Origin: Larkinella humicola
Lineage (GTDB): Bacteria; Bacteroidota; Bacteroidia; Cytophagales; Spirosomataceae
DNA length: 64,000 nt
Reading direction: 5' to 3'
Assembly: GCF_008727875.1 (NCBI RefSeq)
Contig: NZ_VTWS01000004.1
Coordinates: 186,001-250,000, forward strand
Positions 45,783 to 53,705 of this stretch are shown piece by piece; within the stretch, counting starts at the first letter, position 1, and the number at the start of each line of letters is the position of its first letter. The notes beneath the pieces are model-generated. The model searched no databases and was not told where the DNA came from. It worked only from the letters and a program-made list of their open reading frames with translations. Both the position numbers and the translations under genes were made by a program.

Positions 45783-48700
45783 ATGGATAGTTTAACCGGC
45801 AAAGTTTTTGAAACTTGCCGGTTCGTTTTTGATCCTATGCTTTTTTTCTGGAAAAACTGGAATACCGCCCATCGAATCGCCTACTGGGCGGGTTTATTGC
45901 TATTCGTTACGGCCATCACGGGCATGATCTGGGCCTGGATGAAAGGTTTGCAAAACGTCGTTCGCTGGGATGTGCTGAGCGAGCTGACGGAATTGCCGAC
46001 GTCCATCGGCACCTTTACCGACGGTTTGTTTGATTACTCCGTTGCGGGTAAAGCCTATGTCGTTACGGAACAGTTCGTTGCGTCAGCCATGCAGGTGAAT
46101 GTGGTGGCCGCCAAGCTGGTTACGCTGGGCATTTGCCTGGGGCTGGCATTCATTCTGTCGGCGGTCACGCGGCTGCAACGCTGGCCGTATCTGATCGCCA
46201 TGGGCGTGTTGATTGTGCTCGTCGCTACGTTCCGGCTGGAAGTGCTGCAACTACCCGGTTTTTTAGGAACGGCTTTCGGTGGGCGGTTGCCGTTTGTGCT
46301 CGTCGTGCTGGCGCTCGGTCTGGTCAGCTATTATTTCCATGCGTTCAAATCGTACGTTTCGCTGCCCGTTCGGCTTGCGGTTTTCGCAGGCATGATCGTG
46401 CTGGGCTGGCTGGTGGTCGACCGGCTGGCCGGGCAGCCCTTACCAGCATCGGCTTTTGTGGGCTATGCGCTGCCGGGTTTGCTGGTAATCTCGCTGGGAT
46501 TCATTTTCTGGATTTCAACGGAAAGCATTGCCGCTCTGGTCTACCTCACTTCGGTGACCCGCACCAACCGCAGCGACGGTTCGGGACGCCCGCTGGGCAT
46601 GAACAATTTCCTGCTGATCAGTTTGTTGTATCTCGTCAACCTGCTGTTGATCTGGCTGAGTAACACCAAAGTGATTGCCTGGAATCCGGTGGTGATCAGC
46701 CCCTTCGTTTTGTTTATAGTTTCGCTGGTGCTGGGCATCTGGGGGTTTCGGCAGCAATTGCGCCAGAATGAAGCCTTTCTGTCGTTTCGTGATGGCGGGG
46801 CGTTTTTGTACCTCGGTCTGGCCCTCATCACGGTTATGACCATCACCTACGCCTTTGCCTCGGCCAACGATCCGCTGGTGGAGGCTCTGGAAGACATGAT
46901 TGTGTATACCCACCTGGCTGGCGGATTGTTATTTGTCGTTTACGTGTTTTTTAATTTTCTGCCGATCTACCGCCAGGGCCTGCCGGTTTACAAGGTGTTG
47001 TACAAACCGACTCAGCTTTCGTTGCAGCAAACCCGCTTGATTGCCGCTGTGCTGACGGTTCTGATTGGGGCCTACCAAAGTTTCTTCACCTTCAAGCAGG
47101 CCACCGCCGGGTATTTCAATACCGTGGGTGATTTTCATGCCGCTACGGGCGAACTGCGCGTGGCGGAGCAATATTATACCCTCGCGTTAGCCAGTGAATT
47201 CCAAAACCATAAATCCAATTACGCCCTGGCATCGCTGGCCCTGACGCAGGGCGACAAGGTCACGGCGGCTTATTATTTCAATCAGGCGTTGTTGAAACAG
47301 CCCTCACCCCAGGCCTATGTGGGGCTGACGTCGGTGTTGCTGGGTGATAATCTGTTGTTTGAAGCAATCAAAATGCTGCAACGGGGCATTCGTGCTTTCC
47401 CCAAAAACGGCGAATTGCAAAATAACCTCGGCTACCTCTACGCCCGGACCAGCGTGGCCGATTCGGCCTACTATTATCTGGCGGCTTCGACCGGCAACAC
47501 CGCTCGCGAAGAGGTTCCGCAAACCAATCTGCTGGCGTTCTGGGCGCGTAATCCACGGCTGGTTTCGCTCGATTCGCTGGCGTATGCTGCCGAACCAAGC
47601 ACGTATGAATCGTATGAAGCCAACCGGGCCGCGTTGTCTTTTTTCCGGAATACCGCCGACAGCGTGGGCGTTCCGCGTCCGGCCTGGCTCAATGAACCGC
47701 ACACGGAAGAAGGACTGAATGTGTCACGGTTTGCCCGGTTGTATAATTATGCCGTTCAAAACCGGACTGCCGACACGACTTTGCTCACGGTTCTGAGACG
47801 AATGGGCGAGAATCCGGCGAATCAGGATTTTACGGACGATTTGCTCTTTGCCCGATCGGCAACCCAGTATTATACCGGTAACAAACGCGTCGCTTTTGAA
47901 ATTACCGAGCAACTGGCCCGCGACAACCAGCAGAACGGGGCGTTTTACCATTTCATCTCGGGACTTTGGATGATGGAACAGGGCCTGAATCGCAAGGCCG
48001 CCGATATGCTGGCGCAAAATGCCGATACACTTTCGATGTATTATCAGGCCTTGGCGCTGACCAAATCCGGTGATCCGCTCATGGCCCGGCCGCTCTGGGA
48101 AATTGCCGCACAGAACGACCCCGGTGTGCGGAGTCTGGCGGAGGTTTTATACGGCCGAAAGCAACCCTCGTCCGATCTCGAAAAAGCCTTTGTGCTGCTG
48201 TATGACCCCCTAATCGATCAGGCCGGGCCGCAACGGACGTTGTACCAATCCATGCGGGATGATAACCTGAAAACGATTGTTGCATCGACACTGGCCAGCC
48301 GGTATCTGGTTTTAAAACAGGTACCGGTTGCCCAAAGCTGGTACGAACAAATCCCGCAGGAAGCGAAACTGAATGCCTATGCCGGCTCCGCGATGACCGT
48401 CGCTTACCTGCAGCTGCGGAATGCGAAAGGGCAATATGACCAAACGATTGCGGACGCCCGGCAATCGGTTATAGCGGCTTTTCAGGCGGAAAAAGAACGG
48501 GTAGTCGCGCAGGCCTATGAGGCTAAAAAACAACCGGCTGAGGCTCGCCGGTTGTATGAAAGCGCGCTTCGGCAAGCACCGTTCCAGGCCGAACTGGTGG
48601 CAGCCGCAGCCGGTTTTGAGCGGGAAAACGGCCAGTCCGAAAAAGCCTATAATCAGGTTCTCGAAGCCTTGCCCCTGAATGAACGGAATCCGGCCCTGCT

Positions 48701-48866
48701 GAAACTGTATGCCCTGCTTTGCCTCGATCTGGGCCTGGCCGATTACGCCGAAGAGAGTCTGGCGCGGTTGCGGGCGGCCACGTCTCCTGCCGATTATCAG
48801 GCATTTCTGGTAAGCTATCAGGCTAAACGAGCGTTGATTGAAAAACAGCGGGAGGCATTTCAATAA
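45783..48866 (+). CDS. Large membrane protein with C-terminal TPR repeats
   Basis: A 1027-residue inner-membrane protein. About ten hydrophobic spans occupy residues 30-440 (HRIAYWAGLLLFVTAITGMI, WPYLIAMGVLIVLVATF). The rest is a chain of tetratricopeptide-like helices (GDFHAATGELRVAEQYYTLA, NGELQNNLGYLYARTSVADS). TPR scaffolds of this kind occur in envelope assembly or gliding proteins, but I cannot assign a role. Monocistronic start with a small gene 42 bases behind. Confidence 0.8.
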   Translation: MDSLTGKVFETCRFVFDPMLFFWKNWNTAHRIAYWAGLLLFVTAITGMIWAWMKGLQNVVRWDVLSELTELPTSIGTFTDGLFDYSVAGKAYVVTEQFVASAMQVNVVAAKLVTLGICLGLAFILSAVTRLQRWPYLIAMGVLIVLVATFRLEVLQLPGFLGTAFGGRLPFVLVVLALGLVSYYFHAFKSYVSLPVRLAVFAGMIVLGWLVVDRLAGQPLPASAFVGYALPGLLVISLGFIFWISTESIAALVYLTSVTRTNRSDGSGRPLGMNNFLLISLLYLVNLLLIWLSNTKVIAWNPVVISPFVLFIVSLVLGIWGFRQQLRQNEAFLSFRDGGAFLYLGLALITVMTITYAFASANDPLVEALEDMIVYTHLAGGLLFVVYVFFNFLPIYRQGLPVYKVLYKPTQLSLQQTRLIAAVLTVLIGAYQSFFTFKQATAGYFNTVGDFHAATGELRVAEQYYTLALASEFQNHKSNYALASLALTQGDKVTAAYYFNQALLKQPSPQAYVGLTSVLLGDNLLFEAIKMLQRGIRAFPKNGELQNNLGYLYARTSVADSAYYYLAASTGNTAREEVPQTNLLAFWARNPRLVSLDSLAYAAEPSTYESYEANRAALSFFRNTADSVGVPRPAWLNEPHTEEGLNVSRFARLYNYAVQNRTADTTLLTVLRRMGENPANQDFTDDLLFARSATQYYTGNKRVAFEITEQLARDNQQNGAFYHFISGLWMMEQGLNRKAADMLAQNADTLSMYYQALALTKSGDPLMARPLWEIAAQNDPGVRSLAEVLYGRKQPSSDLEKAFVLLYDPLIDQAGPQRTLYQSMRDDNLKTIVASTLASRYLVLKQVPVAQSWYEQIPQEAKLNAYAGSAMTVAYLQLRNAKGQYDQTIADARQSVIAAFQAEKERVVAQAYEAKKQPAEARRLYESALRQAPFQAELVAAAAGFERENGQSEKAYNQVLEALPLNERNPALLKLYALLCLDLGLADYAEESLARLRAATSPADYQAFLVSYQAKRALIEKQREAFQ

Positions 48867-48907
48867 ATTGAGTAAGTTTAAGAGGTGGTTTCTACTCCCC
48901 ATCTTTT

Positions 48908-49457: not shown

Positions 49458-50195
49458 ATGAGCAAGAATATTATTGAAACCAACGAGATCTCAAAACGGT
49501 ATGTGATGGGCAGTGAAGTCATCGAAGCGTTGAAATCGGTGACCATTACGATCAAAAAAGGCGAATACGTGGCGTTTATGGGACCGTCGGGCTCGGGCAA
49601 ATCGACGCTCATGAACATCGTTGGTTGCCTGGATACGCCCACGTCCGGCACGTATATTCTGAATGGCCTGGACGTTAGCAATATGAGCGAAAATGCGCTG
49701 GCGGAAGTTCGGAACAAGGAAATTGGTTTTGTGTTCCAGACCTTCAACCTGCTGCCCCGCCAGACGTCGCTGGAAAACGTCGCCTTGCCGCTGATTTATG
49801 CGGGGTTTAACAAAGCCGACCGCACAGAAAAAGCCATGCAGGCCCTGAAAAACGTCGGGCTGGAACATCGGGCGGGCCACCGTCCCAACGAACTTTCCGG
49901 TGGTCAGCGGCAACGCGTGGCCGTGGCACGGGCACTGGTGAACGATCCCAGTATTCTGCTGGCGGATGAGCCGACGGGTAACCTCGACAGCAAGACGTCG
50001 TACGAAATCATGGATCTCTTCGATCAGATTCACAGCAAGGGCAACACGGTTATTATGGTGACGCACGAAGAAGACATTGCCGAATACGCCCACCGCATTG
50101 TCCGGCTCCGGGATGGGCTGATTGAAACCGACCTCATGAACGCCAATATCCGCAAAGCCAGAGCGTTCATTCAGACGGCCGAAGAAGAACATTGA
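49458..50195 (+). CDS. ABC transporter ATP-binding protein, MacB/LolD type
   Basis: A 245-residue ATPase. Walker [10 protein letters not shown] near 37, Q-loop [10 protein letters not shown], signature [15 protein letters not shown], Walker [14 protein letters not shown]. This branch powers MacB- or LolCDE-like machines that move lipoproteins, peptides or drugs out of the inner membrane. No permease with FtsX-like spans lies next to it, so its partner must be elsewhere. Confidence 0.93.
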
Positions 50196-51169: not shown

Positions 51170-51526
51170 ATGAACTTGCTCAAAATCGCTTCGTTCGCGC
51201 TACTCTTTTTCTTCGGAACCGCCTTTGCGCCCCTCCACCACGGCTGGGGTGATTATGACCAGACCAAAGTGCTGGATTATACCGGCACCATCGAGGAATC
51301 GAAGTACGAAAATCCGCATGCCACGGCCAAAGTGAAAGACAAGGACAAAACGTGGCTGGTATACCTGGCCCCCACAAGCCGGATGAACGAGCGGGGAGTA
51401 AGCGCGGCCATGCTGAAAAAAGGCAGTTCGATGCGGGTGGTGGGTTATCCACATAAAACCGTCAAAAATGAAATGCGGGCGGAACGCATCTTCATCGACG
51501 GGAAGAAGTACGAATTGCGTAAATGA
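51170..51526 (+). CDS. DUF6152 secreted protein
   Basis: A 118-residue exported protein. The signal peptide ends FGTAFA. The mature part starts PLHHGWGDYDQTKVLDYTGT and continues KYENPHATAKVKD and SSMRVVGYPHKTVKNEMRA, the DUF6152 small beta-barrel pattern with its histidine pair and NPHA. It overlaps the next membrane gene by four bases (ATGA), so the two probably work together. Confidence 0.82.
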   Translation: MNLLKIASFALLFFFGTAFAPLHHGWGDYDQTKVLDYTGTIEESKYENPHATAKVKDKDKTWLVYLAPTSRMNERGVSAAMLKKGSSMRVVGYPHKTVKNEMRAERIFIDGKKYELRK

Positions 51527-52011
51527 GGCTGAGCATTCCCGCCGAGTGGCTGCAAGGCATTGAAAACAGTACGCTGGCCGTTGCTGTTCGTCAGTCGCTG
51601 TGGCTGTATCCGGTCCTGGAAATTGTGCATATCGTCGGGATCGTTCTGGTGGTGGGCGGAGCGTTTCTGTTTGATTTCCGGCTGTTGGGCTTTTCGAAAA
51701 AAATACCGGTTGCCGATCTAGCCACACACGTACTGCCCTGGTCGCGGAGGGGGATGATTCTGGTGATTCCCTCCGGTTTGCTGCTGTTCAGCACCAACGC
51801 TGAAGCGCTGGGAAAAGACCCGACCTTCTGGTTGAAAATGGCGCTTTTGGCCGTTGCTGGCATCAACGTGGCGGTTTTTCACCGAATAACCTTTCGCTCA
51901 ACGACTGCCTGGAAAACCGGTCGAATTCCGGTTGGCGCAAAAGCCGCGGCCGTTTGTTCCATTCTACTCTGGCTGGGGACCATTGCCTGTGGCCGCTTGC
52001 TGGCCTATTGA
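51523..52011 (+). CDS. DUF6644-like four-span membrane protein
   Basis: A 162-residue inner-membrane protein with about four hydrophobic spans (SLWLYPVLEIVHIVGIVLVV, MILVIPSGLLLFSTNAEAL, FWLKMALLAVAGINVAVFH, AAVCSILLWLGTIACGRLLA). His in EIVHIVG and in AVFHR could bind heme or metal, as proposed for related families, which is uncertain. Coupled to the DUF6152 gene, which in other genomes is also paired with such membrane proteins. Confidence 0.78.
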   Translation: MRLSIPAEWLQGIENSTLAVAVRQSLWLYPVLEIVHIVGIVLVVGGAFLFDFRLLGFSKKIPVADLATHVLPWSRRGMILVIPSGLLLFSTNAEALGKDPTFWLKMALLAVAGINVAVFHRITFRSTTAWKTGRIPVGAKAAAVCSILLWLGTIACGRLLAY

Positions 52012-52029: not shown

Positions 52030-52073
52030 AAATGCAAATAGCCAATGACTCTGGTCGTTGGCTATTCGCATTT
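52030..52073 (-). terminator. Terminator after the 22-codon frame, shared with the DUF6644 gene
   Basis: Arms 52030-52045 and 52058-52073 (16 bases). The single mismatch is a G-U pair only in minus-strand RNA. On the minus strand it starts 14 bases after the stop of the small frame and ends in TTTTC. It can also serve the convergent gene ending at 52011. Confidence 0.7.
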
Positions 52074-52087
52074 GTGTGGTGTGTGAC

Positions 52088-52156
52088 TTACCGGATCGGA
52101 CAAAGATGCCAGTCCTGATCGGGGTCACAACGTTGCTGCGTTGTTTGCGTTTTCAT
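52088..52156 (-). CDS. 22-residue cysteine-containing microprotein downstream of a riboswitch
   Basis: ATG 52156 to TAA 52088 encodes a 22-residue peptide beginning MKTQTTQQRC and containing CDPDQDWHLCP, with Cys10, Trp16, His17 and Cys19. It is the only reading frame in a transcript bounded by a consensus promoter, a SAM-I-like aptamer and a terminator. An AT-rich leader precedes the start, as usual in Bacteroidota, without a strong Shine-Dalgarno. It could be a functional microprotein, a sensor or leader peptide, or the remnant of a lost methionine gene. Coding status is inferred from context only. Confidence 0.45.
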   Translation of the reverse strand: MKTQTTQQRCDPDQDWHLCPIR

Positions 52157-52167
52157 GATGGTTGTTA

Positions 52168-52273
52168 ATTTATAGTTCCTAATTTATTTAGGCAGGTTAG
52201 CACTGATTCCTCGGATCGTTCGGAAAGTTGCTAAGGGTTCATCGAGCCTGTCTCTCCCCCTTTCTGTATAAAT
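52168..52273 (-). ncRNA. SAM-I (S-box) riboswitch aptamer, by structure
   Basis: Minus-strand RNA shows every S-box element in order: P1 ATTTATA with closing TATAAAT; P2 AAGGG with CCCTT enclosing GAGAGACAGGCTCGATGAA; the conserved TTAGCAAC; P3 ACT-TTCC with GGAA-TC-AGT; the conserved GTGCTAA; a pseudoknot CAGG with CCTG; and P4 CCTAA/TTAGG at 52192-52178. These aptamers bind S-adenosylmethionine and usually repress methionine or SAM genes. Here only a 22-codon frame follows. The call rests on visual pairing and conserved loops, not a covariance search. Confidence 0.75.
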
Positions 52274-52331
52274 CTCGAACCGGCGCACCGGCAATTACTG
52301 GTTACCAGAAGTAGTAATTGAGATAACGATA

Positions 52332-52362
52332 CAAAAGTAGAACACGATTTTTTATATTCCAA
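52332..52362 (-). promoter_or_regulatory. Consensus promoter for the riboswitch transcript
   Basis: Minus strand: TTG (52362-52360), exactly 20 bases, TACTTTTG (52339-52332), a full TAnnTTTG match. Transcription would start near 52325, about 50 bases before the aptamer. Confidence 0.7.
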
Positions 52363-52587: not shown

Positions 52588-53688
52588 TTAATCTTCAACC
52601 GACAGAGGTTGCGGCAGAACCGAAACGCCCTGATCGACCCGGATGATGTACGCCTTGCCGCCCGCCCGCTCGATGGCTTCGGCCACGGCTTCGGGTTTTT
52701 CGGGTGCGTAGGCAAACATGCAGCCCCCACCCCCGGAACCGTTGATTTTTCCGCCGTACGCACCGGCTTTGAGGGCTTCGTCGATCATGTGGTCGATTTT
52801 AGGCGTCGAAACGCGCTTGGCATCCCGCAAACTGGCCTGGTGAGTGGTGAGCAAAGTGCCCAGCCGCTGGTGATCGACGGTTCCGCTTTTGAACATCGTC
52901 AGGGCTTCCCGCAAGACGTCTCGGTCGGAAAGGTTGCCCTTCAGCAACGCCATTTCGTCGGGCGTCAGGATCGACCGGTATTCGTCGGCGGCTTCCAGCG
53001 GGTAGGTCGTGAGCAAAAAGGCCGGGTCATACTGTTTTATTTTTTCCATCGCCCGCAGCATCCCGAATTTGACGTGTTTCAGAACGCCGATGGTGTCTTT
53101 CGGCTGGCGCGAATCGCCCAGCACCAACGCGCCGAGTTGGGGCTGAAACGATTCGAGGTGAATGTTCGGAACGGATTCCAGGTAAATTACGCCCCCAACC
53201 GCCGTGGCGTAGTGGTCCATCATGCCGCCGGGTTCGCCAAATTCCAGCACTTCGGCGGCATAAGCGAGTTCCGCCAGTTTTTCGGGGGCCAGCGTTTTCG
53301 GGTTGTCGGCGAATTGAGCGAGAATGGCCAACCAGGTGATCAGCAGGGCCGAGGAACTGGATGTACCCGCATTGATGGGAATCTCTCCCCGGATTTCGCC
53401 CTGAACCCCCGTCGAAAACCGGAAACCTTCCCGCAACAGAATGTTGACCGCGCTGCGGAAGTAATCCCGGTCTTGCCGGTACGTCAGCGGCAGTGTTGCC
53501 AACGAAAACCGCTCTTCGGCGTCGATGTCGGGCAGAAACAGCCGAATCTCCGGCTTCGTGGTGGGTTCGGCGGTAATCCGGATGCGTTGGGAAATGGCAG
53601 CGGCAATAACGGGCAAGCCCAGATAATCCTGGTGTTCTCCGAATAGACAGATGCGACCCGGCGTGGATATAGACAGCGGAAAGGACAT
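52588..53688 (-). CDS. GHMP sugar kinase, galactokinase-like
   Basis: A 366-residue kinase. N-terminal galactokinase-type signature PGRICLFGEHQDYLGLPVI at about 10-28, GHMP ATP loop INAGTSSSSALL near 108, catalytic Asp in GGMMDHYATAVGG, and C-terminal GAYGGKINGSGGGGCMF. It would phosphorylate the C1 hydroxyl of a galactose-like sugar. Last gene of the SusCD operon, so its natural substrate may be the sugar released there, possibly N-acetylgalactosamine. ATG 53688 is chosen; the in-frame TTG two codons earlier is less likely. Confidence 0.85.
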   Translation of the reverse strand: MSFPLSISTPGRICLFGEHQDYLGLPVIAAAISQRIRITAEPTTKPEIRLFLPDIDAEERFSLATLPLTYRQDRDYFRSAVNILLREGFRFSTGVQGEIRGEIPINAGTSSSSALLITWLAILAQFADNPKTLAPEKLAELAYAAEVLEFGEPGGMMDHYATAVGGVIYLESVPNIHLESFQPQLGALVLGDSRQPKDTIGVLKHVKFGMLRAMEKIKQYDPAFLLTTYPLEAADEYRSILTPDEMALLKGNLSDRDVLREALTMFKSGTVDHQRLGTLLTTHQASLRDAKRVSTPKIDHMIDEALKAGAYGGKINGSGGGGCMFAYAPEKPEAVAEAIERAGGKAYIIRVDQGVSVLPQPLSVED

Positions 53689-53705
53689 AATCAAACAATC
53701 ACAAA

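Follow-up and report, generated by a model that had tools for sequence, protein, structure and literature searches.

SAM-I riboswitches are usually regarded as switches that turn genes for methionine enzymes and transporters on or off. What does such a sensor control when only a 22-codon frame follows it? The question is raised by a minus-strand locus of Larkinella humicola, for which the first-pass annotation had listed three options: a SAM-responsive microprotein, a SAM-responsive small RNA, or an orphan that had lost its met gene. We analyzed this locus within the window, that is, the whole 64,000-nt stretch of contig NZ_VTWS01000004.1 (positions 186,001 to 250,000), and in related genomes (numbered G000, the window genome, and so on). 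It comprises the following features, with positions counted from the first nucleotide of the window.

52332..52362, minus strand: promoter TTG-N20-TACTTTTG, exact pattern, read in the sequence
52292..52320, minus strand: hairpin CAATTACT...AGTAATTG in the leader, 5′ of the aptamer, folding in this way in 7 of 10 units
52167..52274, minus strand: SAM-I (S-box) aptamer with P1–P4 and pseudoknot, match to RF00162
52157..52175, minus strand: 3′ strand of P1 (CTATAAATT) followed by the 10-nt spacer AACAACCATC; presumed site of translation initiation, closed with SAM
52088..52156, minus strand: 22-codon frame plus TAA stop, translation MKTQTTQQRCDPDQDWHLCPIR
52103..52132, minus strand: selected core RCDPDQDWHL, codons 9–18, from the codon test on 10 units
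52030..52073, minus strand: probable intrinsic terminator, stem-loop with T-rich tail
52588–53694, minus strand (same as the unit): GHMP kinase gene, upstream neighbour
51523–52011, plus strand: DUF6644 gene, convergent, downstream neighbour

Nine other genomes contain the same parts in the same order, so the unit is more than a chance assembly. RF00162 matched the aptamer (52274–52167, minus strand) over model positions 1–108 of 108 with 75 bits (E 9e-16; gathering score 44.4), bearing out the S-box RNA with P1–P4 and pseudoknot that had been read from the letters, and no other Rfam match in the 64 kb window reached its gathering score. Across the ten units, 99.1% of the 330 cells of the 33 pairs were paired, as scored on a structure derived from the same ten-unit alignment with the pseudoknot added by hand. 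Two pairs changed on both sides (6 of 500 shuffles reached two), one of them in the pseudoknot, which in G007 shows a compensatory double change from A-U to C-G; most pairs were invariant and covariation is thin. At the level of sequence, the element is thus confirmed as a SAM-I (S-box) aptamer whose pairing is kept in relatives. The usual, though not strictly defining, SAM-I partner, a methionine or SAM gene in cis, was found at none of the ten loci; at each, no less than 1.5 kb of DNA past the unit was covered.

The aptamer is flanked by candidate transcription signals. The exact TTG-N20-TACTTTTG sequence proposed as a promoter on the minus strand is present at 52362–52332, and we take it to be of the Bacteroidota −33/−7 type. 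The same pattern lies 70 to 88 nt 5′ of the aptamer in nine of the ten units, while the tenth (G007) has CATTTTTG at this position, one base off the pattern by eye. The 5′ leader hairpin, a possible competitor of an extended P1, beat shuffled sequences in four of ten units (p < 0.05; p = 0.11 in the window genome), and this region adopts other folds in G002, G004 and G006. Behind the frame, the anticipated terminator was found as a stem-loop (52073–52030) of −24.5 kcal/mol by RNAfold with a T-rich tail, the inner part of its stem being imperfect. We grade it only as probable because a simple consensus scanner, which targets sigma-70 promoters and stems with loops of 3–8, listed neither this terminator nor any promoter at the locus. 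All ten units nevertheless have, within about 63 nt 3′ of the stop codon, a hairpin with a minimum of 7 pairs whose next 10 bases include 4 or more T. The predicted discrete transcript is about 300 nt long.

The frame itself (52156–52088, minus strand) starts with an AUG 10 nt after P1, a spacing that is identical in 10/10 units. Codons 9–18 read RCDPDQDWHL in all ten despite 10 of their 30 nucleotide columns being variable; nine of these columns are third positions and the remaining one is a first position with a silent Leu change. None of 20,000 random placements of the same number and kind of changes equalled this absence of amino-acid change, a rough probability, since columns were taken to be independent and the tree was left out of account. 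Pro20 is likewise invariant, with four different codons used, and codons 2–8 vary at all three positions (4, 3 and 7) with no comparable constraint. Because the amino acids of the core stay fixed while the codons change across the ten units, it is almost certain, as judged from sequence comparison, that the frame is translated, with its amino-acid sequence under selection. The peptide thus combines a free polar N-terminus with a fixed core, RCDPDQDWHLxP, and its C-terminus differs in G007 and G234. The 22-codon frame of the first-pass annotation stood, and the pair of cysteines ascribed to it did not hold as a conserved feature: the second is replaced in four units, by Ala (G001, G004), Val (G007) or Ser (G234). 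With one conserved Cys, no Cys run, and no met or cysteine gene seen behind, the unit does not match a cysteine attenuator. The peptide had no match in Pfam at E 0.001, and its two matches among solved structures, both designed proteins, were at chance level (E 0.19 and 0.32).

We searched relatives for the unit at several taxonomic depths. It is present in 9/9 Larkinella genomes examined and in G234, which belongs to another genus; these ten are also the only genomes with the exact CDPDQDWH codon pattern among 222 of the family, so that looking in other Spirosomataceae for the aptamer followed by a CDPDQDWHLC-like peptide, as proposed at the outset, did return the unit, with the last Cys of that motif not conserved. 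A search for relatives in which a met gene always follows the aptamer and the small frame is not kept gave none. A peptide profile recovered the same 10 of 222 family genomes (E < 1e-13), by construction, as it was built from seven of these peptides (two shortened). Outside the unit, its best match was 6e-4 both in 390 genomes of the order (two Larkinella included) and in 395 genomes of the phylum (G851). Weak matches in three family genomes (G086, G090 and G117; E about 1e-3) were not counted and are treated as chance, two of them, G086 and G090, after reading by eye. These two were among six weak-match loci from genomes of the order that were read and judged chance, and an RNA-family scan of 20 of the 28 listed weak-match loci gave no match. 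In a species-genome collection, exact CDPDQDW codons occurred in 26 stretches, 7 from Larkinella and 19 from others; the latter had no SAM-I match at gathering score in the DNA examined. No exact match was present in viral contigs.

The copy in G234 lies directly behind a SAM-I aptamer of 71.5 bits. G235, from the same genus, lacks the unit and has only metH and metY SAM-I elements. The G234 copy could stem either from shared ancestry with loss or from transfer, given that MetH fragments of G234 and G235 are 86% and 87% identical to the window genome, compared with 90 and 94% for two Larkinella. Two of the four SAM-I matches of G234 (L137 and L139, at G234:C1:17642 and 4919303) have the same score, aptamer and flanks and sit near both ends of a single contig; as they probably represent an untrimmed circular overlap, the true number is likely three.

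Does the unit serve a neighbouring gene? Past the terminator, the first-pass annotation had seen no same-strand gene for thousands of bases, in agreement with our finding that the next credible one (45437–43914) begins about 6.6 kb beyond the unit. Same-strand frames do exist between the hairpin and 45437 (for example 51200–51727, 49491–50192 and 48312–48902), but they were judged non-genes because they lie over longer or Pfam-supported plus-strand frames. The DUF6644 gene, which is joined downstream by a DUF6152 gene on the other strand, is convergent and adjacent at eight of the ten loci; no DUF6644 match was present in the DNA examined at the loci of G007 and G234. On the upstream side, the GHMP kinase gene is found at four of ten loci, and the others have, by eye, a sulfatase (G001 and G004), a PHP-type gene (G003), a sugar kinase (G005), a divergent aminotransferase (G007) or a formylglycine-type gene (G234), which makes six different upstream neighbours among ten units. 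The PLP aminotransferase gene of G007 (L041) resembles methionine aminotransferases by eye. A directly following gene to regulate is absent in nine of the ten units, and in G234 a same-strand peptidase gene lies downstream, beyond the hairpin. As the upstream neighbours differ and no met gene follows in the DNA examined, the unit looks like an autonomous, free-standing gene. Among the options listed at the outset, the codon pattern, the fixed P1 spacing in 10/10 units and the lack of a visible met gene behind any of the ten favour the SAM-responsive microprotein.

To place the unit among other SAM-I elements, we scanned 39 genomes, including the window genome, with RF00162 and obtained 68 matches in 36 of them. 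The nine Larkinella genomes have three matches each, the third being the window's unit in all nine; in the window genome, the other two precede metH and metY (metH, metY and metX are named here from reading of the translations). Between the metY aptamer of this genome and its O-acetylhomoserine sulfhydrylase gene lies a short frame, MTNIRCCMPPAGY. When the 68 matches were classed by simple motifs (at least one 'other' element, G008:C12, is metY by eye), an AUG 7–14 nt after P1 was present in 22/25 metY, 9/9 orphan, 6/11 'other', 1/6 metX and 0/17 metH elements. Because their AUG mostly falls in this interval, we infer that the metY and orphan elements are of the translational type. The layout of the unit resembles that of the metY leaders, and this likeness suggests that it descends from a metY-type leader.

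These comparison elements showed further arrangements of their own. Most metY elements of the order have, 7–14 nt on, a short frame with many Cys codons (L003, L016, L033, L037, L047, L059, L061, L054 and L031). In total, these metY short frames have 63 Cys in 600 residues, adjacent Cys in 16 of 20 (8 of the 16 from Larkinella), and in some cases a terminal Cys run, of seven in G027. From its sequence, this arrangement looks like a two-input leader for SAM and cysteine. A tandem-Cys attenuator before cysS is described for Rhodobacterales in an excerpt of PMC8632094. In all nine Larkinella metH elements (L001 etc.), the P1 3′ strand is repeated 25–29 nt downstream (TCGATAAGC in seven, shorter in G003 and G007; the search asked for a match of 7 nt or more within 70 nt), and this second copy is a likely competitor for the P1 5′ strand. 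Of eight metH elements from outside Larkinella, only that of G035 has such a repeat of 7 nt or longer, with a different sequence. At L067 (G009:C5:195015–195551), two divergent SAM-I elements stand back to back, about 345 bases apart, and face, by eye, a cysteine-desulfurase-like gene and a secreted-protein gene; a gene similar to the latter follows a single SAM-I element in G013 (L066). Finally, in two elements of G035 the first long ATG frame is distant: by eye, L046 has a TonB-receptor-like gene roughly 500 nt downstream, behind a Cys-rich short frame, and L025 an ATP-grasp-like gene roughly 475 nt downstream.

The best explanation for the unit, and one that we hold to be probable, is a SAM-off, free-standing micro-gene that makes a peptide acting in trans when SAM is low. 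Such a gene would consist of its own promoter, a SAM-I 5′ leader, one 22-codon frame and its own terminator. With plentiful SAM, the aptamer would close P1 and thereby keep ribosomes from starting at the AUG, which lies 10 nt past the 3′ strand of P1; as SAM falls, P1 would open and the peptide would be made. The peptide could then act as a low-SAM effector, its likeliest target being an enzyme, a carrier or a regulator in sulphur amino-acid metabolism, to which it would bind. Where SAM-I sequesters the ribosome site, this site lies in the 3′ side of P1, according to an excerpt of PMC2258182.

Folding models are compatible with such an OFF switch, in which P1 closed by SAM would leave no peptide made. 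Forcing P1 lowered the accessibility of the start region in 10/10 folds, as the geometry predicts. Without ligand, the P1 3′ strand was mostly unpaired in all ten folds (0.55–0.97), and the P1-forced fold was never the more stable one in any of the ten; these results would fit a ligand-dependent P1 but do not establish one. We also asked whether P1 extends towards the AUG to form a sequestering helix in every unit, and rejected this: the extension beat shuffled flanks (p < 0.04) in only three of ten units (G007, G008 and G234), and a local hairpin competes with it in G000, G002 and G006. The combined p of 0.005 for this extension counts related units as independent and is not reliable. Among metY and other comparison elements, the extension similarly beat shuffles in some and not in others. 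The hairpin after the frame persisted with or without forced P1 in the three folds examined (G000, G007 and G234).

A role in trans is the simplest reading because the units share no common gene behind them and a role in cis would have no visible target. It is unlikely, in our assessment, that the frame encodes a sensor acting in cis, an arrest peptide or cysteine-codon leader steering its own transcript, as would be left of a leader that lost its gene. The short frames at similar spacing behind the order's metY elements, with their frequent adjacent Cys, make descent from such a leader plausible, and the core ending W-H-L-x-P is reminiscent of stalling peptides. The nine units with no gene directly behind and the position of the G234 peptidase gene beyond the hairpin nevertheless speak against cis action, and Cys-codon sensing, for which a Cys run is missing here, would not need DPDQDWHL to be conserved. 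The discrete predicted transcript, with its conserved aptamer, 5′ hairpin and terminator-like hairpin, would also suit a SAM-responsive small RNA, be it the sole role of the unit or an additional one, in which the frame would be incidental or subsidiary; RNA pairing, however, does not predict that the core varies only silently, and we consider this reading quite improbable.

The convergent DUF6644 gene gives the locus the layout of antisense-acting riboswitches as set out in an excerpt of PMC9943018, in which case read-through in one SAM state would oppose this gene (51523–52011, plus strand). Yet two of the ten loci showed no match to DUF6644 in the DNA examined, and in the three folds inspected the hairpin after the frame was unchanged by P1 forcing, with no sign there of a terminator/antiterminator switch; we consider an antisense role very unlikely. 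That the unit is a remnant after loss of a met gene is scarcely credible: no met gene lies behind it and related genera have SAM-I before metX or metY (names by eye), but maintenance in all nine Larkinella and another genus, together with strong selection on the peptide, contradicts this third of the original options. Returning to the trans-acting peptide, we are evenly balanced on the fuller proposal that the riboswitch has as its sole output a trans-acting microprotein that signals low SAM through the core RCDPDQDWHLxP peptide, encoded by an autonomous gene that moved between neighbourhoods and probably arose from a detached metY leader peptide.

In this unit, a SAM-I sensor is wired to a peptide that is below ordinary annotation length and yet clearly selected. 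If the peptide acts in trans, a microprotein would relay methionine status, and 'orphan' riboswitches would offer a route to hidden small proteins. We found no report of this unit, nor of SAM-I with a free-standing small ORF, in searches of open-licence papers. A riboswitch with a small ORF is a known kind of arrangement; new here are the SAM-I class, the free-standing position and a peptide as the only visible product. Like other SAM-I (S-box, RF00162) elements, the unit has a full aptamer above gathering score with a start site just behind P1, and it differs from them in having no methionine or SAM gene behind and a 22-residue peptide as its only visible product. SreA and SreB of Listeria are SAM riboswitch small RNAs that act as RNA. 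They share with our unit a SAM riboswitch whose product reaches beyond its own cis gene, whereas the coding signature indicates a peptide here.

Further parallels come from excerpts of the papers cited. One is the M-box of M. tuberculosis, which controls the conserved small ORF rv1805A, of unclear role (PMC12810186): both are riboswitches with a translational platform over a conserved short ORF, but the M-box aptamer senses Mg2+ and its ORF lies upstream of pe20 in an operon, in contrast to the free-standing gene with a terminator described here. The antisense SAM-I of ubiG-mccBA in C. acetobutylicum (PMC2258182, PMC9943018) also reads towards a convergent gene, through a terminator/antiterminator and read-through, whereas in our unit the frame is conserved and the hairpin gives no hint of switching. 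In Sinorhizobium, metA SAM-II (AUG1, terminator, AUG2; PMC9373788) similarly joins a SAM riboswitch to a nearby start codon, a leader terminator and a small RNA product, although the aptamer is of another class and metA follows. Sinorhizobium meliloti peTrpL (PMC7298713), lastly, is a comparably short leader-type peptide for which a trans function is known; it is encoded by a transcription attenuator, while the frame studied here stands behind a riboswitch.
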